Positions 6,809 through 16,482 of a DNA stretch of 64,000 nucleotides are shown here, piece after piece. The translations under genes were made by a program, and so were the position numbers. The number at the start of each line of letters is the position of its first letter. The first letter of the stretch is position 1. The notes below the pieces were generated by a model. It did not search any database. It saw only the letters and a list, made by a program, of their open reading frames with translations, and had not been told where the DNA came from. This DNA comes from Gemmatimonas sp. (lineage in GTDB: Bacteria; Gemmatimonadota; Gemmatimonadetes; Gemmatimonadales; Gemmatimonadaceae): NCBI GenBank assembly GCA_023910675.1, contig JAAVWC010000008.1, positions 1 to 64,000 on the forward strand, read 5' to 3'.

Positions 6809-8179
6809 GTGAGCGCGCAGTTGGTGCAGCTTTCGCTAACCGACGCGTCGTTTCCGCCGCTCGTCGCTGATGCGTATCGGTCGCTGCTGCGTGACGCGCA
6901 CCAGGCGCTCGACGAAGCCGAAGTGCCGACCAGCGACCGTCGCGCGTGGATCGTTCCGGGGCGCATCGAGGTGCTGGGCAAGCATGTGGATTACGCCGGT
7001 GGCCGTTCGCTGCTGTGCACCGTGGAACGCGCCATTGTCATCGTGGCGTGCGTACGAAACGACCGCAACGTCGTGCTGCGCGATGCGCGACGCCGCGAAG
7101 CGATTTCGCTGTCGCTCGATTCGCCGACGCGCGGCGCGGTGCCCTGGGCCATCTATCCGCGCACGGTGGTGACTCGCCTGGTGCGCAACTTCGGCATCGC
7201 GGTTGGCGGTGCCGACTTCGCACTCGCCAGCAACCTCCCCGCTGCGGCGGGTGTCTCCAGCTCGAGCGCGCTCACCGTTGGCCTCACGCTGGCGTTCACG
7301 GCGCTCTTCAACCTGTCGGCTCATCCGCTCTTTCAGCAGGCACTCTTCGATCGCCCTGCGCTGGCCGGCTACGTGGGTGCCATCGAGAACGGCATGGACT
7401 ACGGGGTGCTCGGCGGCGAGAAGGGCGTGGGGACCATGGGCGGCGCTCAGGACCAAACGGCCATTCTGTGCAGCGAACGCGGACGCCTCGAAGTGTTCTC
7501 GTGGGCGCCGGTCACCTTCGAGCGCAGCGTCGCGTGGCCCGAGTCGCACACGTTCGTGGTTGGGGTGAGTGGTGTGGTGGCGGCCAAGACAGGCGCCGCC
7601 AAGGAGCGCTACAACAGAGCGGCGCGCACGGCACACCGGCTCGTCGATGCATGGAATGCCACGGGGGTACCGCGTGTGCAGATGCTGCGCGACGCGTTCC
7701 TGGCCGCAGGCGATATGCGTGTCCCTGGGGAAATCCCGCCGGCACTTGTTGCGGCGGCCGAAGCGGCGGCCGACCACGAGTTCTCGGCCGCGCATCTCAT
7801 CGGTCGTCTTGAGCAGTTCTACGACGAAGCGTTCGTGATCGTGCCACAGGCAACCGATGCGTTGGCGCGCAACGACCTCGCGGAGTTCGGACGGCTGGTC
7901 GACAAGTCGCAAGCCGGTGCCGAGCGCGCGCTCGAGAATCAGATCGCCGAAACCGTACACCTGCACCGGTACGCGCGTGAACTTGGCGCGACAGCCGCGA
8001 GTGCTTTCGGGGCTGGCTTTGGCGGGGCGGTGTGGGCCATGGTGCCGACTGCCGACGCCGAGCGGTTCGCGTCTCGTTGGCGTGACCGTTATCTGCGTGT
8101 GCACCACAGTGCGTCGCATCGCTCGTTGTTCTTTACCACATCGCCCAGCCCGCCGGCCTTCGAGGTGCTCGACGGCTGA
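6809..8179 (+). CDS. Galactokinase-like GHMP sugar kinase
   Basis: Predicted anomeric sugar kinase of 456 residues. I chose the GTG at 6809, one base after the preceding stop, because translation upstream is out of family and antiparallel to the nucleotidyltransferase. Three GHMP motifs are present: I, GRIEVLGKHVDYAGG (about 52-66); II, LPAAAGVSSSSALTVG (phosphate loop); III, GAGFGGAVWAMV near the C-terminus. The catalytic-base Asp is probably D215 in GGAQDQTAI. In galactokinases motif I reads GEHTDY, where the Glu contacts the sugar; here it is Lys (K58). So the substrate may not be galactose. It is the last gene of the sugar cluster. Confidence 0.85.
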   Translation: MSAQLVQLSLTDASFPPLVADAYRSLLRDAHQALDEAEVPTSDRRAWIVPGRIEVLGKHVDYAGGRSLLCTVERAIVIVACVRNDRNVVLRDARRREAISLSLDSPTRGAVPWAIYPRTVVTRLVRNFGIAVGGADFALASNLPAAAGVSSSSALTVGLTLAFTALFNLSAHPLFQQALFDRPALAGYVGAIENGMDYGVLGGEKGVGTMGGAQDQTAILCSERGRLEVFSWAPVTFERSVAWPESHTFVVGVSGVVAAKTGAAKERYNRAARTAHRLVDAWNATGVPRVQMLRDAFLAAGDMRVPGEIPPALVAAAEAAADHEFSAAHLIGRLEQFYDEAFVIVPQATDALARNDLAEFGRLVDKSQAGAERALENQIAETVHLHRYARELGATAASAFGAGFGGAVWAMVPTADAERFASRWRDRYLRVHHSASHRSLFFTTSPSPPAFEVLDG

Positions 8180-8189
8180 TCCTCGCGCG

Positions 8190-9355: not shown

Positions 9356-10603
9356 ATGAAGAAAACGCCTCCTGTGACAGACGCGACACCGGACGACGGT
9401 CAAACCACATCGTGGCGCCCGCGCGGTAACGTGCTCGCGCTCGCCGCGGTGAGTTTTCTCACCGATGCGTCGAGCGAGATCATCGCGCCACTGTTGCCGC
9501 TTTTTCTGGTGGGAACGCTGGGCACGTCGGTCCGGATGGTGGGGCTCATCGAAGGCGCGGCCGAGGCCGTCGCGGCGCTGCTCAAACTCGCCAGTGGATG
9601 GTGGTCCGACAGGGTCGCACGGCGCAAGCCGTTGATTGTGGCGGGGTACACCATTGCGTCGGTGGTGCGCCCACTGGTGGCGTTGGCCCAGTCGGGGTCG
9701 CAGGTGCTCGCCATCCGGCTGGTGGACCGTGTGGGGAAGGGGATTCGTGGCGCACCACGCGATGCCCTACTCGCTGCATCGGTGCCTGTAGCGCAGCGTG
9801 GTCGGGCGTTCGGCTTTCATCGGGCTGCCGATCACGCGGGCGCCGTAGTGGGGCCGCTCATCGCTCTCGCCTGCCTGCAGGGGCTGGGCATGCCGGTGCG
9901 CCACGTCTTCTGGGTGGCGGCGGTGCCAGGGGCGTTGGCGGTGCTGGTGGCGGTCGTGTTCGTACGCGAGCGACGTGTCACACCGGCAGAGCTGAAACCC
10001 GTAGCGAGCCCCGAGCCGGTCGCCGCGCAGGCCACCGCGACGAAAGCGCCGTTACCCCGCACCTTCTGGAGCGGCATTGCTCCAATGGTGCTCTTCACGC
10101 TCGGCAATTCCACCGACGCGTTTTTGCTGTTGCGCGCCGCGCAGCTGGGAGTGGCCACCGCGCTCATTCCGCTGCTGTGGGTGGTGCTGCACCTCGTGAA
10201 GAGCGCTTCGAGCACCCCGGGCGGAGCCTTGTCCGACCGGTTGGGGCGTCGTCCGCTCATCGTCGCCGGCTGGGTGCTCTACGCGGCCGTCTACGCCGGT
10301 TTTGCGTTCGCGGAAGCCCAGTGGCAGGCGTGGGCGCTGTTCGCCGTGTACGGGGCCGTTTTCGGGCTCACGGAGGGATCGGAGAAGGCGCTGGTGGCCG
10401 ACCTCGTGCCGGCCGCGCAGCGCGGGACCGCTTTTGGCTGGTACCACGCGCTGCTCGGCGTGGCGGCGCTCCCTGCCAGCGTGCTCTTCGGCTCCGTATG
10501 GGACGTGTGGTCGTCGCGCACTGCTTTCCTGGCGGGCGCTGGCATTGCGATTCTGGCCAGCGTGTGGATGGCACTGCAGATCCGGCCGCGATGGGTGGTC
10601 TGA
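9356..10603 (+). CDS. MFS transporter
   Basis: A 415-residue inner-membrane transporter with about 12 hydrophobic segments. Motif A between the second and third segments is present as GWWSDRVARRKPLIVAG, and its counterpart in the second half as GALSDRLGRRPLIVAGW, so both MFS halves are intact. A hydrophilic loop rich in Ala and Pro separates the halves (about 205-235). The conserved stretch VGKGIRGAPRDALLA resembles a subgroup of uncharacterised bacterial MFS proteins. The substrate is unknown; drug export or metabolite transport are both possible. The start is an ATG just outside the divergent peptidase gene. Confidence 0.85.
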   Translation: MKKTPPVTDATPDDGQTTSWRPRGNVLALAAVSFLTDASSEIIAPLLPLFLVGTLGTSVRMVGLIEGAAEAVAALLKLASGWWSDRVARRKPLIVAGYTIASVVRPLVALAQSGSQVLAIRLVDRVGKGIRGAPRDALLAASVPVAQRGRAFGFHRAADHAGAVVGPLIALACLQGLGMPVRHVFWVAAVPGALAVLVAVVFVRERRVTPAELKPVASPEPVAAQATATKAPLPRTFWSGIAPMVLFTLGNSTDAFLLLRAAQLGVATALIPLLWVVLHLVKSASSTPGGALSDRLGRRPLIVAGWVLYAAVYAGFAFAEAQWQAWALFAVYGAVFGLTEGSEKALVADLVPAAQRGTAFGWYHALLGVAALPASVLFGSVWDVWSSRTAFLAGAGIAILASVWMALQIRPRWVV

Positions 10604-10620
10604 GCGGCGTTGGGTGCGGT

Positions 10621-10754
10621 GGCGAGATCGGTAACTACTTTCCGCGGATCTTAACTGAACAAGCGGGGGAACACGGATCAAAAGCAAATGTTGTTCATCC
10701 GTGTTCCTCCGCTCGATCCGCTCGTATCTGTGGAAGGCAGTTGACGATCTGGCC
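10621..10754. repeat. Palindromic dispersed repeat, copy 1 (nested hairpins)
   Basis: The outer arms begin GGCGAGATCGGTAACTACTT at 10621 and end with GGCAGTTGACGATCTGGCC at 10754; reverse-complemented, the arms match over about 28 bases with several mismatches. Nested inside is a perfect 11-bp stem (GGAACACGGAT at 10668-10678, ATCCGTGTTCC at 10697-10707). The left arm recurs almost exactly at 13775. This looks like a REP/MITE-type intergenic element. It could also act as a terminator after the MFS gene. Confidence 0.65.
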
Positions 10755-10884
10755 ACTTTGCGGTGAACGCATTCTCTGCAGAACGGATCCGTACACACCC
10801 CGGACGCCTACGAGGGCCAGTCACGGTGGAGTACCACCGGCGGCCCTCGCGTGGATCCACTCATGGATTGATCAGCGAAGAGTT

Positions 10885-11409
10885 TTACAGACGCATGCCG
10901 ACGTTCAGGATGCTCCACATGAACCGACGGTTTGGATCACCTGGCCGATACACTTGTGCGGTGAAGTTGTGCAAGCGACTCTCGACAAAGACTGGCCGAC
11001 CGCCAACGCTGGATCGGACGCCCAAGCCAACCGCGCCGTTAAGTCCGTTATCGCGTGGAGGATCGCCCCAATAGACGCCAGCTGAAGCACTGAGGTAAGG
11101 CTTAAGCCGGAGGCGTTCAGCGGAGAATAGCGCCCCAAGCGATGTGTTCCAAACGTTCGCCGCACCGGGTGTTTGGCGGCCAAGATCTGCACGTAGCGTC
11201 AGCCACTCCGGTCCGACGCGGCGTTCCGCACCAATCCCGAGGCTCAGCCCTGTTCGCTGGGCTTGCTGGACTTGCGTATTGCCCCACGACGCGCCCGTGG
11301 TGACGAAAAACGCGGTGCCTGCCGTCGACGATGTCTGCGCCGTCGCTCGGGCCGAGACGAATGGCACAAGAACGAAGAACGACAGAACGTATTTAGCGAC
11401 ACACCTCAT
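10885..11409 (-). CDS. Small outer-membrane beta-barrel-like protein
   Basis: A 174-residue secreted protein with an N-terminal signal peptide cut near RATAQT. The mature part is made of alternating hydrophobic/polar strands with Gly and aromatic turns (LSLGIGAERR, LTLRADLGRQ, LKPYLSASAGVYWG) and ends in a strand, ILNVGMRL, typical of small 8-strand beta-barrels. It follows the lipoprotein gene by 33 bases on the same strand, so the two are probably co-transcribed. No enzyme motif is seen. The family is not recognised; the barrel call rests on pattern only. The gene lies in the lower-GC accessory segment. Confidence 0.65.
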   Translation of the reverse strand: MRCVAKYVLSFFVLVPFVSARATAQTSSTAGTAFFVTTGASWGNTQVQQAQRTGLSLGIGAERRVGPEWLTLRADLGRQTPGAANVWNTSLGALFSAERLRLKPYLSASAGVYWGDPPRDNGLNGAVGLGVRSSVGGRPVFVESRLHNFTAQVYRPGDPNRRFMWSILNVGMRL

Positions 11410-11442
11410 GAGTTACCTCCAGCGCTCGGATTGGCGAGACCG

Positions 11443-12459
11443 TCATGGATTGGAGATCGTGGCAATTCCACCGTCCTGAGAGCCGTCGTTGTATATCGCC
11501 CCAAAGTTGTACGCTGTCGGCGGAAACGTTCGACTCCCGAAGAAGTCGTTCTGGTTCGGGCTCGCCGATCCTCCGTCCATCTCCCAGATCTGATGTGAGA
11601 ACGATGCGCCGAAGAAGCCCGCACAACCCAAACTCACGTTGGGGAAATAGTCGCGGTTTGTTCGGATGCCTCCAACCGCGTAAGTCACACCTGTACCCGG
11701 AACACCGTTTACATCCAACTGCCGTCCTCTGAACTCCATTTCGTTGGCGCCGCCGAAGGGGCCGTCCCCTCGAAAAATTCGGAAATACGTGAGCCGTACG
11801 TCAGTGCTCGTTCCCGCGCAGGCGGATGTTGAACTGCTCTCCAAAGACGCGAGCAGAGCGACAGAACGGAGTGACCGCCTTTCTGCGGGATGAATGACAA
11901 GCATGTGCCCTAGCGACGGAATATCCTTCTCCATGACCTCGCGAGTCCGACCATTCGCGTCAATCACGGTTGCTCGCATGGCATCCGGATCCGACACCGT
12001 GACCACTGTGACGGGGCCACCTGCCCAAGAATCGACATGCCCGTCTATTGGGAAGTAGAGGTCCATCGAACCCAAACGCCCCAATAGCATGCGATCAGAC
12101 TCCTCTAGGCGGTTAGCCGCCAGCACATCTCTTATCCGTTGTGGTCCATTCAGGAGGAACATGTGCAGGTCGAGCTTGTGCTCCTGAAACGATGACGTGC
12201 GGATTGCGTCTCTGAGAGCGGATCGGGCGGTCGCGTCCTCAAGTGCCACGGCAATGTGGCGTGCGATCTCCAATTGCGGCGTCATCTTCGAACTGCCGAT
12301 CACGGCCGAAGACGCCCGAGATGGCTCCTCCGCTAAACCGGCAACGGCACTTCCGTCACGCTGACAGGCCGTCAGGCAAGCAGCAGCGAGCGTTGCCGCT
12401 ATCGTTCGAACGACGGTTCGTCGCGGGAATGGCCGGCGGTTGTTGGAATCTGAAGACAC
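11443..12459 (-). CDS. Predicted lipoprotein of unknown function
   Basis: About 338 residues from a GTG at 12459, which has GAGGAG four bases upstream; an in-frame ATG at 12471 overlaps that box and one at 12495 has no ribosome binding site. After basic residues (RRTVVRT) a hydrophobic stretch ends in the lipobox-like ACLTAC, so the mature protein is probably lipid-anchored. Next come a helical region (about 50-120), a beta-rich block with IDGHVDSWAGGPVTVVTV, and a Gly/Asn-rich C-terminus. I do not recognise the family. Its neighbour is the beta-barrel protein, so a surface-exposed lipoprotein-porin pair is possible. Codon use and GC look lower than in the flanking operons. Confidence 0.6.
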   Translation of the reverse strand: MSSDSNNRRPFPRRTVVRTIAATLAAACLTACQRDGSAVAGLAEEPSRASSAVIGSSKMTPQLEIARHIAVALEDATARSALRDAIRTSSFQEHKLDLHMFLLNGPQRIRDVLAANRLEESDRMLLGRLGSMDLYFPIDGHVDSWAGGPVTVVTVSDPDAMRATVIDANGRTREVMEKDIPSLGHMLVIHPAERRSLRSVALLASLESSSTSACAGTSTDVRLTYFRIFRGDGPFGGANEMEFRGRQLDVNGVPGTGVTYAVGGIRTNRDYFPNVSLGCAGFFGASFSHQIWEMDGGSASPNQNDFFGSRTFPPTAYNFGAIYNDGSQDGGIATISNP

Positions 12460-12958
12460 ATAGCTCCTCATAGGAAAGGTGTTAAATCCACACAATACGT
12501 GCGCTGGAAGACGATGGCAGCGTGCACCACTACGTCTCGCTCAGGCCAAGCGTCGCTGGCCTTGACCTCCTGTTGAGTTGGGGCGCGGCTTTCGCTCTGC
12601 CGGTCCGTCGTCTGAGCCTAGCGGCTGGCCCGGCGTGCTGTCCGCAGCGTGATTCGCAGAGGACCCATCATCGCCGCACTCAAGCCGGGCCGTTTGCTGA
12701 TCCGGGCTACACGTAAGTGCTGAAGTCTGCGCCCATGTTTGTTGCCTCGATAAGCTCAGACGAGGGCGCGCGAACATCCAGCGCAAAACTGTCCCGATTC
12801 CTGCAGGAGAGTCCCACCGTCTTCGATTGTTTTCGTGCTCCGACTGGAACAGGTGCCCGCGGGCAGCGATGGAACATTAGGCGAGCCATCGAGAGTACAA
12901 TCGACAAACGGCGGCGATTCGCGCCGAGAGCCAGCCACCCGCTCGACTTTGCCAGTTA
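12460..12958. other. Intergenic region between the lipoprotein and the regulator
   Basis: About 500 bases between divergently transcribed genes. Short open frames occur on both strands, but none has a ribosome binding site, a signal peptide or family resemblance. It should hold the promoters for both neighbours; I could not identify convincing -10/-35 elements. Composition is closer to the accessory genes than to the core operons outside. Confidence 0.4.
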
Positions 12959-12964
12959 TTGAAT

Positions 12965-13729
12965 ATGATCCTGATCGTAGCCTCGTCCCGAGCCAGTACC
13001 ACGCGTATCCGCGCCGCCCTGCCTGCTGGTATTGTTTCACAATGTGTCACGGAGTGGCATGCGGCATGTCAGGCGGCGCCGACCGCCGGGTGTATTGTAC
13101 TGGAGTTGACAGTACCCGACGGGGCGATGTTTGTGGAGAAGGTGCGTTCATTGCGAAGCGTTGCCCCGGGTGTCGCGGTGGTGGCGGTGGCACCGTTGCA
13201 TACCAGTGCCGTTCGGTATGCGATGGGAGCAGGCGTTGACGACTTTGTTTCATTCGAGACTCTGGAGGAGGAAGGCTGGCAGGTGATTCGCGAGGCGCGA
13301 GCCCGCGCACTCCGTCAACAGGTCATTAGCCTGGTGCGTTCAACGGGTCATCTTAGCGACGATCTGCGCGACGCCATGATCCGGGCGATTAATTCAGACA
13401 AGCTGCCACGCACGGCCGCCGCGCTCGCGCTGTTGTCGCGATTGAGTCGTACCGCGCTCTACCGCTCAACAGCGAGCGGATCATCCACTAAGAATGGGGG
13501 AAGTGTGGTGCGTGAGGTCCTCGACTGGATCGCGCTCGTGCATTGCGTCTCGAGAAAGCGGCGCGACTTGCCGTGGGAGGCGATCGTGCGTGAGGTAGGC
13601 ATCGACCTACGTACGCTCCGAGCCATAGCGCGTCGACGCACAGGGCTTGCGCTGACGGAGCTACAGGAGCCGGGCAGTGCGAAGTTGGTGGACGAATGCC
13701 GAAAGTGGACAGCGGTGGCGAGCGCGTAA
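12965..13729 (+). CDS. AraC-type transcriptional regulator with degenerate receiver-like N-terminus
   Basis: About 254 residues from the ATG at 12965; a TTG six bases earlier is also possible. The N-terminal 115 residues have the layout of a response-regulator receiver (MILIVASSR, then CIVLELTVPDG, VAVVAVAPLH, GAGVDDFVSFE). The acidic pair of the first loop is missing, the phospho-acceptor Asp position reads Glu or Leu, and the conserved Lys is absent. The C-terminus (about 180-250) has two helix-turn-helix stretches (LPWEAIVREVGIDLRTLRAI and a following helix ending LTELQ) resembling AraC-family domains. It probably binds DNA independently of phosphorylation. It is an orphan at the edge of the accessory segment and could control the divergent lipoprotein-barrel operon. 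Confidence 0.6.
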   Translation: MILIVASSRASTTRIRAALPAGIVSQCVTEWHAACQAAPTAGCIVLELTVPDGAMFVEKVRSLRSVAPGVAVVAVAPLHTSAVRYAMGAGVDDFVSFETLEEEGWQVIREARARALRQQVISLVRSTGHLSDDLRDAMIRAINSDKLPRTAAALALLSRLSRTALYRSTASGSSTKNGGSVVREVLDWIALVHCVSRKRRDLPWEAIVREVGIDLRTLRAIARRRTGLALTELQEPGSAKLVDECRKWTAVASA

Positions 13730-13774
13730 GCTGAGCAGGCCAAACCGGCTTTGTGTGAACGGCTTCGGCGCGCA

Positions 13775-13830
13775 GGCGAGATCGGTAACTGCTTTCCGCT
13801 CGTTTCCGTGGAAAGCCGTTAGCGACCACG
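13775..13830. repeat. Palindromic dispersed repeat, copy 2
   Basis: Begins GGCGAGATCGGTAACTGCTT, one mismatch from the left arm of the element at 10621 over 24 bases. It folds back on ACGTGGTCGCTAACGGCTTTCC (reverse complement of about 13806-13828) with a loop of about 6 bases and 3-4 mismatches. This copy is short and lacks the inner hairpin of copy 1. It lies between the regulator and the convergent S9 peptidase gene and may double as a terminator. Confidence 0.6.
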
Positions 13831-13856
13831 TCCCAGCCTAGCGCGAGCCGGCGCGT

Positions 13857-16214
13857 CTACCGCTTCGCCTTGGTGCCGTTCGGCCCGATCGTGCGCTCGA
13901 ACAACTCGTAAATGCGACGGTACTCGTCGGTCCATGAATCCGGGCGCACGAAGCCGTGGTCTTCCACCGGGTACACCGCCAACTCCCAGCCCGTCTTGCC
14001 CAGTTCGATGAGCCGCTGCGAGAGGCGCACGATATCCTGGAAGTGCACGTTCGTGTCGACCATGCCATGCGCCATGAGCAGCGGGTCTTCGAGGCCGCTC
14101 GCAAAGAAAATCGGCGACGAGCGGCCATACGCCAGCGAATCCCCCTGCGGCAGATTCAGAATGCCGCCGGTGTAGCCGTGGTTGTAGTGCGCCCAATCGG
14201 TCACGCTGCGCAGCGCGGCGCCCGCACCGAATGACTTGGGCGCGGTGAAGAGCGCCATGAGCGTCATGAAACCACCGTAGCTGCCGCCATACATCCCCAC
14301 GCGCTCGGGATCGATGCCGTACTCCTTGGCCAGATACTTCGACGCATCCACCTGGTCCTGCAGATCGCGCCCACCCATGAAGCGGTAAATGGCCGTGCGC
14401 CAATCGCGACCGTAGCCGGCACTCGCCCGGTAGTCGACGTCGAGAACCACATAGCCCTTGCTCGCGAGATACTGGTTGAAGAGGTACTCGCGCGAATAGC
14501 TGCTCCAGAAGTCGTGCACGTTGTGCATATACCCGGCACCGTGCACGAAAATCACGGCGGCCCCATTGGGCTGCGCACCCATGTCCTGCGGCGTGTAAAG
14601 GCGCGCCGGCACCTGCACGCCATCACTCGCCGGGATCTTCACGATGGCAGGCTTGAGCCACGTGCGGGAGCGAAACGCCACCGACGTGCTGGTGGTCAAT
14701 TGCGTGGCGGCGCTGCCGTTCGCCATCGCGACATACAACTCGGGCGGCGTGTTGCTCGTGCTGAACACATCGGCAAAGCGCGCCCCGTCGGGGCTCATGA
14801 CCACCGTGTGCCCACCATGCTCGCGCGTGAGCTTGGTGCGCGCGCCACCCGCAATGCTCATGCGATACGCGTGGCGCACGAACGGCGACTCTTCGCTGGT
14901 GTGCAGCAAAAATGTACGGCCGTCGGGCGAGAGCTCCGCGCGCTCCACTTCCCACGTGCCACTGGTCATCGTCGTGCGCTCGCTACCATCGCGATTGGCG
15001 CTGTAGAGATGCGCGTAGCCACTCGCCTCACTCGCGAACCACACGCGACCATCGTTCAGCCACCCCATGCACGAGCCGCATGGACCACCCACCCACGCCG
15101 TGTCGTTGAGGGCTTCGAGCACACGGACACTACCTGTATCCTGCACGGTGGTGAGATAGCGCCACTTGAAGTCGGGCGTCGTGGCGGAAATGAGCGCCGC
15201 CGAGCCATCGTCACTCCACCCCATGGCGCGCACCTGCGCCGCCGCGCGCGTGCTGTCGCCGTTGATCACCCACAGCGGCGACATGGCGCCCGTGGCCAGC
15301 GAGACGCGATAGGCGCGGAAGCGCACCGTGCCGTCGCCGACCTTGGTGCGCGAGCCGATCTCCTCGGTGAAACCGCTCGCCGTGACGTAGTTGGGCACTT
15401 GCGTGAGTCGCGGCTGTCCCGGCGGATTGCTCGCGGTGAGCAGCACCGCCGACCGCAGCGACGGCGACACACTCAGTTGCGCCAGGCGCTCACCCATGGG
15501 CAGGTGCACCGAGGGCAGCGCGCGCGCGAGCGCCGCGTCGCGCTGCGCCTTGCGCACGGAGTCGGCGCGCTGCTGATCACGAATCACGCCGAACAGTTCA
15601 CGCTGCTGCCGCTCGAGTGCGCCGCGCATGCCGGTGGCCCGCGCTGAGTCGCGGGGGGCAGGGCCGCTGCGAATGTCGGTCAGCTGCCGCACGGCGCCGG
15701 TGGCCAGCTCCAGCGCGAACGCATTGCCATCACGTACGAAGAGCAGATGCTGTTCATCGGCGCTGAAGCGCGGATCGTTCTCGAATGCCACCGTTTGCGT
15801 GAGACGACGCGCTGTTCCCGTCTTGGTGTTCACCAGGTACAGATCGCCGCCGGTCGCCACCGCGCGTCGCATCCGGTCGCGCGACAGCGGGCCATCGGCG
15901 ATGAGCGCCGCCACAGTGTCCATGTGCGCATCGCTGACTTCCACGGGCGTCGCGCCCGCCACCGGTTGCACGCGATACGGGCGCAGTGGTGCGTCCCACG
16001 GGGCACCGGCGGGAGCCCACTGGAAGTACAGCCACTTGCCGTCCGCGCTCCACGACACATTCTGCGGTTCGCGGCCAACGTGCTCCGGGCCACGCATGAT
16101 GTTCGGAATGCTGAAGTCGAAGCTGCTCTGCGCGTGAGCCGACGAAGGGGCCGCCACGAACAAAGCGACGAGCGTGCAGGTGGGCAGCGCTCGTCGGGAG
16201 AAAAATGAGATCAT
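13857..16214 (-). CDS. Secreted S9-family prolyl oligopeptidase-like peptidase
   Basis: A 785-residue secreted serine peptidase. The signal peptide ends near SSAHAQS. Residues about 40-500 form a beta-propeller with WD-like SWSADGKWLYF and LSPDGRTFLL segments. The C-terminal alpha/beta-hydrolase domain holds the triad: S645 in GMYGGSYGGFM, D720 in HGMVDTNV and H753 in VEDHGFV. This matches the DPP-IV/acylaminoacyl-peptidase branch (S9B/S9C). It is the last gene of an operon with cstA and ybdD (19-base gap to ybdD). That suggests external peptides are cut and the products or resulting carbon acids are taken up by CstA. Confidence 0.92.
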   Translation of the reverse strand: MISFFSRRALPTCTLVALFVAAPSSAHAQSSFDFSIPNIMRGPEHVGREPQNVSWSADGKWLYFQWAPAGAPWDAPLRPYRVQPVAGATPVEVSDAHMDTVAALIADGPLSRDRMRRAVATGGDLYLVNTKTGTARRLTQTVAFENDPRFSADEQHLLFVRDGNAFALELATGAVRQLTDIRSGPAPRDSARATGMRGALERQQRELFGVIRDQQRADSVRKAQRDAALARALPSVHLPMGERLAQLSVSPSLRSAVLLTASNPPGQPRLTQVPNYVTASGFTEEIGSRTKVGDGTVRFRAYRVSLATGAMSPLWVINGDSTRAAAQVRAMGWSDDGSAALISATTPDFKWRYLTTVQDTGSVRVLEALNDTAWVGGPCGSCMGWLNDGRVWFASEASGYAHLYSANRDGSERTTMTSGTWEVERAELSPDGRTFLLHTSEESPFVRHAYRMSIAGGARTKLTREHGGHTVVMSPDGARFADVFSTSNTPPELYVAMANGSAATQLTTSTSVAFRSRTWLKPAIVKIPASDGVQVPARLYTPQDMGAQPNGAAVIFVHGAGYMHNVHDFWSSYSREYLFNQYLASKGYVVLDVDYRASAGYGRDWRTAIYRFMGGRDLQDQVDASKYLAKEYGIDPERVGMYGGSYGGFMTLMALFTAPKSFGAGAALRSVTDWAHYNHGYTGGILNLPQGDSLAYGRSSPIFFASGLEDPLLMAHGMVDTNVHFQDIVRLSQRLIELGKTGWELAVYPVEDHGFVRPDSWTDEYRRIYELFERTIGPNGTKAKR

Positions 16215-16233
16215 GTCAGTCAGGGCTGGTGGG

Positions 16234-16482
16234 TCAACAGCAACGCGAACCGGTGGCCTTGTAGCGGGCGGTCAGGCGGTCACGTTCGAACGTCTGCGGA
16301 TCGAGCGGGGTGCACTCGGGATAATGCTGGCGCATGTGTGCCAGATAGGTGTCGTAGTCGGGCACACCGATCACGCGCCGCACCACCGCAGCCACCCGAC
16401 GCGCCGCCGCCAGCCAGCGTCCCCACAAGGGGGACGCCGGGGACGACGAAGCGGCGGGGGCGTGGGCAGGACGAGCCATCAT
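16234..16482 (-). CDS. ybdD: YbdD/YjiX family small protein
   Basis: An 82-residue protein of the YbdD/YjiX (DUF466) family, the small partner of CstA/BtsT carbon-starvation transporters. The family core is plain: GVPDYDTYLAHMRQHYPE followed by ERDRLTARY and a terminal RCC, the conserved double cysteine. The N-terminal 35 residues are an Ala/Pro-rich extension. It starts 6 bases after cstA on the same strand. In E. coli such proteins are needed for transport by their partner; that role is taken from the family. Confidence 0.9.
   Translation of the reverse strand: MMARPAHAPAASSSPASPLWGRWLAAARRVAAVVRRVIGVPDYDTYLAHMRQHYPECTPLDPQTFERDRLTARYKATGSRCC

Follow-up and report, generated by a model that had tools for sequence, protein, structure and literature searches.

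The window analysed here is a stretch of 64,000 nucleotides of a Gemmatimonas sp. (assembly GCA_023910675.1, contig JAAVWC010000008.1, hereafter C8) from a 4.55-Mb genome that is assembled in 52 contigs and is 85% complete. Within it we examined a 3.2-kb segment, at 10621-13830, that lies between an MFS transporter gene and an S9 prolyl-oligopeptidase gene, carries three genes, and is bracketed by two copies of a palindromic repeat. The features of the locus, named below by sequence comparison and inspection, are as follows:

9356..10603, + strand: MFS transporter gene, core, left flank (Pfam MFS_1, E 3.2e-42; orthologues 94-95% identical in the relatives G017 and G008)
10402..10603, + strand: divergent 3' end of the MFS gene, interpreted as coming from the donor and forming the left end of an imported tract (identity measured over 10402-10567)
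10619..10757, + strand: hairpin 1 (copy 1), outer stem with nested inner palindrome (repeat search, folding)
10646..10721, no strand: palindrome nested within copy 1 and lacking in copy 2 (sequence and alignment; matched by the family model R1 at 10652-10735)
10885..11409, - strand: small barrel-like outer-membrane protein with signal peptide, 174 aa (barrel reading by inspection)
11443..12471, - strand: lipoprotein of an unnamed family, lipobox LTAC (open reading frame and lipobox)
12605..12766, no strand: inverted repeat in the divergent promoter region (19-bp arms 12605-12623 and 12748-12766, 84% complementary)
12959..13729, + strand: orphan regulator with receiver-like N-terminus and AraC-type helix-turn-helix-like C-terminus (profile A7; homologues)
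13775..13830, + strand: hairpin 2 (copy 2), an internally deleted form (repeat search, folding, alignment)
13840..13862, no strand: right junction, at the S9 stop codon (sister identity high from 13860 onward)
13857..16214, - strand: S9 prolyl-oligopeptidase gene, right flank (Pfam Peptidase_S9, E 2.1e-45; 96% identical in G008 and G017)

The two closest relatives, G017 (JAIXTI) and G008 (CANGXD), share 93.5-95.5% identity with the window across the flanking blocks, and in both of them the site is empty: the stop codons of the MFS and S9 genes overlap (TTAG), with neither hairpin nor segment. Blastn places window position 10570 at sister position 7215 and window 13840/13849 at sister 7222/7228, and all 3.27 kb between window 10570 and approximately 13840 are missing from both sisters. 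An earlier note on this DNA had proposed that the segment is accessory and that sister strains would reveal this; its absence from both, between flanks of approximately 94-95% identity, bears the proposal out, and absence from close relatives with conserved flanks is one mark of a horizontally acquired genomic islet. The MFS and S9 genes are also adjacent in G009, in G006 and at the more distant locus L076. Six further loci (L069, L070, L071, L072, L077 and L040) have no S9 match and differ beyond the MFS gene, the match to the window resuming only at approximately 16.2-16.5 kb; the MFS/S9 slot is therefore variable in general. Neither the segment DNA nor its three proteins had a BLAST match among 21 flank loci (L030-L033 and L035 were used solely in this search), and no hairpin was seen at any empty site inspected. 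Most named relatives found for the flanking MFS gene are metagenome assemblies of Gemmatimonas or Gemmatimonadaceae. As a separate observation, sister G008 carries approximately 2.2 kb (L068, 2603-4829) between sequences that are contiguous at window positions ~8172-8184, another recent indel nearby.

The difference from the sisters does not begin at the repeat. Over the last 166 bp of the MFS gene that were compared (10402-10567) the window is only about 75% identical to the sisters, whereas the two sisters share 98-99% identity in this tail. Changes present in the window alone number 19 in the preceding 1,046 bp (9356-10401) versus 42 in these 166 bp, and a change point at 10402 gave a likelihood-ratio statistic of 105.8, the highest of 300 random placements being 15.9. 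In 100-bp bins, identity to the sisters is 87-100% across most of the gene and then falls to 77% and 64% in the last two full bins. Of the 53 tail codons, 30 are changed, 19 of them synonymously, a pattern that fits another species' functional allele better than decay. The left side thus has, at 10402, the sharp divergence edge within a flanking homologous gene by which an import is recognized, and for this reason the segment most likely entered joined to the 3' end of another species' MFS gene. We rejected a second MFS copy as the source of a gene conversion, as the genome has a single MFS match at E <= 1e-60. Furthermore, the foreign tract begins some 220 bp before hairpin 1 is reached, which makes the hairpins look like passengers.

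On the right, the window matches the sisters at 92-95% over an initial 100 bp starting at 13860 and at 92-98% for several hundred bases in from the S9 end. The junction alignments contain no clean target-site duplication; a degraded one is possible. The composition of the segment is in keeping with the earlier description of lower GC: it has approximately 58-61% GC versus 65-70% on its left and mostly 63-70% on its right. GC content at third codon positions (GC3) is 0.63 in the barrel gene, 0.62-0.63 in the lipoprotein gene and 0.67 in the regulator gene, and averages 0.776 over 37 long gene-like open reading frames of the window, a mechanically chosen reference that includes the lipoprotein and regulator genes and may include some frames that are not genes. 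The low GC3 is the composition of foreign DNA, atypical in the way of a genomic islet.

We compared the two repeat copies directly. A direct repeat of 36 nt (10610-10645 and 13764-13799) is 86% identical and contains the 24-base arm that had been noticed at 10621 and, with one mismatch, at 13775; a second shared stretch (10717-10747 and 13795-13825) is 81% identical. A search of the 4.55-Mb assembly that tolerated up to 3 mismatches found the arm GATCGGTAACTRCTTTCCGC at the two window places only, and its reversed-pattern control (GATCGGTAACTRCTTTCCGC reversed) gave 0 occurrences. Both copies fold as single-stranded DNA, as had been claimed: copy 1, with its nested inner stem, has a z of -8.3, equalled by none of 200 shuffles, and copy 2 a z of -2.5, equalled by 3 of 200. 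The alignment corrects the first reading in one respect, in that copy 2 is copy 1 minus the 76-bp inner palindrome, matching the outer parts of copy 1 at 46 of 56 aligned bases. TCCGC direct repeats flank the inner palindrome (10641-10645 and 10717-10721), and a 76-bp difference so bounded is the signature that slippage across the hairpin would be expected to leave.

The inner palindrome belongs to a dispersed family. A covariance model of it (R1) identified at least five strong places in the same genome (on C8, C2, C14, C19 and C1) and at least three weak ones, counts that are lower bounds because 150 of 1,598 candidates were scored; one further place is C2:67366. In G008 and/or G017, corresponding hairpins occupy the orthologous positions for C2:63964, C14, C19, C1 and C2:67366. 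Stem pairing is maintained, with 254 of 270 cells paired and double changes at 6 of 21 pairs in 13 one-strand rows, which were chosen by us from 30 by dropping 17 (opposite-strand reads and four C2:67366/Tex-locus-type matches); the two-strand count (30 rows; 14 of 21 pairs) is inflated, because each palindrome is read twice. Convergent gene ends flank seven of the eight places considered in this genome and its sisters, namely both window copies, C19, C1, C2:67366 and two hairpins on G008:C187, the neighbour of the right one being taken from the G017 orthologue; gene strands were called mechanically and are ambiguous at C14, C2:63964 and two orthologues. Orthologous hairpin regions of different species are identical at between 139 of 164 and 148 of 160 positions.

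The earlier note had taken dispersed copies with no link to gene gain as evidence against its own interpretation, and this is largely what we found: of five other places in the genome that were compared with the sisters, four show no gene gain or loss at the hairpin, and one does. At that locus, in G008 (L160, G008:C187, 5499-6824), two hairpins bracket genes for an HxlR regulator and an oxidoreductase, both named by inspection. In G017 the left hairpin is missing there; in the window's own genome (L162, C2, 4566-6217) both genes are absent and the left hairpin is partly kept, its truncated form adjoining a 413-aa open reading frame that by inspection resembles an IS256-type transposase. In G066, of the same taxonomic family, the hairpin model matches more than 20 distinct places, including six on contig C12 (also C51), a number far above that in the Gemmatimonas genomes searched.

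These hairpins share features with several known elements. Like repetitive extragenic palindromic (REP) sequences and their BIME arrays with RAYT transposases (PMC2817692), they are intergenic, palindromic and dispersed. The cited account gives more than 100 REP copies per genome, whereas the present family has at least 5-6 clear copies, with arms of up to ~50 bp whose two sides change together, and no alternating BIME array. No R1 match was found at L191, L193, L194 or L180, so that a rayt gene flanked by its own REPs was not seen at these loci, and the single Y1 transposase gene of the window's genome has no family hairpin beside it; we rejected a REP/RAYT identity. Intrinsic terminators, which reportedly evolve by compensatory change, resemble the family in having compensated stems between convergent genes. 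They differ from it in combining a GC-rich stem with a T run: no T run follows the window hairpins, and a terminator-type scan listed no site at either copy. The hairpins of the present family are probably transcription-end or insulating elements, and the family is low in copy number and structurally maintained. We found no published account of it in a limited search (Gemmatimonas palindromic repeats, convergent-gene hairpins).

We consider it likely that the three-gene cassette was acquired horizontally, by homologous recombination with an unsampled Gemmatimonas-like species, and that the hairpins were carried along. In the donor, hairpin 1, the cassette and hairpin 2 would have stood in that order behind a homologous MFS gene. 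The first crossover would have occurred inside the MFS gene at ~10402, and the other at the S9 stop, either through a very short stretch of homology, in the manner of homology-facilitated illegitimate recombination (HFIR), or because the donor had an S9 gene there too; the hairpins would have travelled as passengers, without causing the transfer. HFIR (PMC3240628) and its use in the import of accessory modules (PMC5361080) share this layout, in which the foreign stretch is tied at one side to a gene that has a homologue in the recipient while its far end lies at very short homology; modules are described as entering beside a conserved anchor gene (PMC5361080). Several points weigh against this proposal. 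The donor was not found, and the window tail and the sister tail are about equally distant from other species (~61-75% identity). The change point on the right flank was not significant (51 of 500 shuffles were as high); without a significant donor tract at that junction, two-sided homology is unproven. The arm common to both hairpins occurs nowhere else in the genome, so a passenger role must assume a hairpin of donor type, and the assembly itself is in 52 contigs and 85% complete. Finally, HFIR in experiments usually deletes about as much recipient DNA as it inserts (PMC3240628), whereas no recipient deletion is evident here; the exchange at the right end may also have been by ordinary homology.

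The equal distance of the two tails also makes the tract edge symmetrical, and it would suit a loss in place of a gain: the cassette would be ancestral to both this lineage and the sisters, and homologous recombination in the sisters' common ancestor would have replaced its MFS tail and the cassette with a short allele that lacks the cassette. We hold this to be unlikely, since the MFS and S9 genes also abut or are adjacent in G009, G006 and L076, the cassette genes are missing from the other genomes of the genus searched except for relatives at 23-34% identity, and the GC3 of the cassette is foreign. The earlier note had favoured a more active part for the repeats, as a pair of elements of the REP or miniature inverted-repeat transposable element (MITE) type that framed an insertion, or as recombination points, and our data support neither. 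In the former case, a composite transposition would have carried the cassette into the MFS/S9 gap between MITE/REP-like ends. The hairpins do lie near both ends in direct orientation, a Y1 transposase is present in the genome, and the second hairpin pair in G008 brackets the HxlR and oxidoreductase genes. This explanation is nonetheless very doubtful: the foreign tract starts outside hairpin 1, within the MFS gene at ~10402, there is no clean target duplication, none of the three segment proteins is a transposase by Pfam or PHROGs, no family hairpin lies in the flanks examined around the Y1 genes at L191, L193 and L194, and the family is low in copy number.

Homologous recombination between a resident hairpin and a hairpin-flanked donor fragment would likewise account for the direct-repeat arrangement and for the variable gene content at the second hairpin pair. 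It would require hairpins where the inspected empty sites have none, and it conflicts with a left edge that lies outside the hairpin and with copies that differ at 10 of 56 bases, at least the divergence of orthologous hairpin regions between species; we regard it as highly improbable. An origin as an integron cassette that integrated at a secondary site and had the two copies as its attC sites is, in our view, extremely improbable. It was considered because Gemmatimonas genomes carry integrons, an integrase above the curated cut-off being present in all ten genomes searched, the window's own included, and because the letters GTAAC/GTTAGCG at the ends of copy 2 resemble what we take to be the attC consensus. 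Against it, the segment has three genes on both strands, and a model (R2) built from 8 attC-like sites of Gemmatimonas arrays gave 4.2 bits in copy 1 and no more than 5.4 bits for a stretch overlapping the left arm of copy 2, versus 36-86 bits for most array sites; attC sites were rejected.

The integrons deserve mention in their own right. The ten genomes with an integron integrase (TIGR02249) are G000, G001, G004, G008, G015, G017, G020, G041, G042 and G066. In the window's own genome the integron (L189, C1:453000-472900, 13276-16408; integrase C1:472276-473214) has three identical tandem 606-bp units and three tandem 509-bp units that are 99-100% identical, with an attC-like site in each 606-bp and each 509-bp unit. 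In a limited search we found no literature that treats integrons, Gemmatimonadetes and attC together.

The barrel protein, the lipoprotein and the regulator match no family in Pfam or NCBIfam. The family profile of the regulator (A7) matches the NtrC receiver (E 9e-4), and its homologue in G273 matches HTH_AraC above cut-off. The regulator has matches in one of 40 related genomes (23% identity) and, in the phylum sample, in 14 of a further 394, the best at 45% in G066. The lipoprotein is more widespread, with relatives in 7 of the 40 (best 34%) and 49 of the 394 (approximately 25-34% identity), and its lipobox cysteine is invariant in the family alignment (A6). Barrel homologues were sought among the fetched loci. 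In G273 the regulator homologue adjoins a lipoprotein homologue, and in G064 a lipoprotein homologue is followed by a weak barrel homologue (E 3.8e-4); these recurring pairings support a functional cassette. The cargo probably works as a divergon in which the regulator controls the surface lipoprotein and the small porin-like outer-membrane barrel, and the inverted repeat at 12605-12766 is a possible operator. A single-sequence fold of the lipoprotein was uninformative (mean predicted local distance difference test score 32), as was a search of its family profile against the PDB, and an Rfam scan gave only a sub-threshold guanidine-II match (E 0.86) within the lipoprotein gene. Carriage by a phage or plasmid was rejected (no plasmid match for the lipoprotein or regulator, no viral relative of the regulator, no PHROG), as was a role in defence, for which PADLOC gave only a chance-level match (DpdC, E 0.0055).

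Overall, these results point to an ordinary horizontal transfer by homologous recombination, one that is unusually well resolved because the end of the donor's gene came along; the segment and the repeats are real, and the repeats are most likely not the movers. What appears to be a repeat-bracketed mobile element can thus be explained without mobility of the repeats, its true foreign edge lying within the neighbouring core gene. We also entertain, as a long shot, the idea that in Gemmatimonas covarying hairpins at convergent gene ends mark exchange-ready slots, in which divergons with a hairpin cap at each 3' end could be swapped via recombination in neighbouring genes without damage from read-through; on that view, the cassette of the window and G008:C187 with its HxlR-oxidoreductase pair would be two instances of a modular layout in general use. 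For a phylum of which few species have been cultured, the analysis documents a hairpin family under pairing constraint, together with a regulator/lipoprotein/barrel cassette of unnamed families that is open to experiment.

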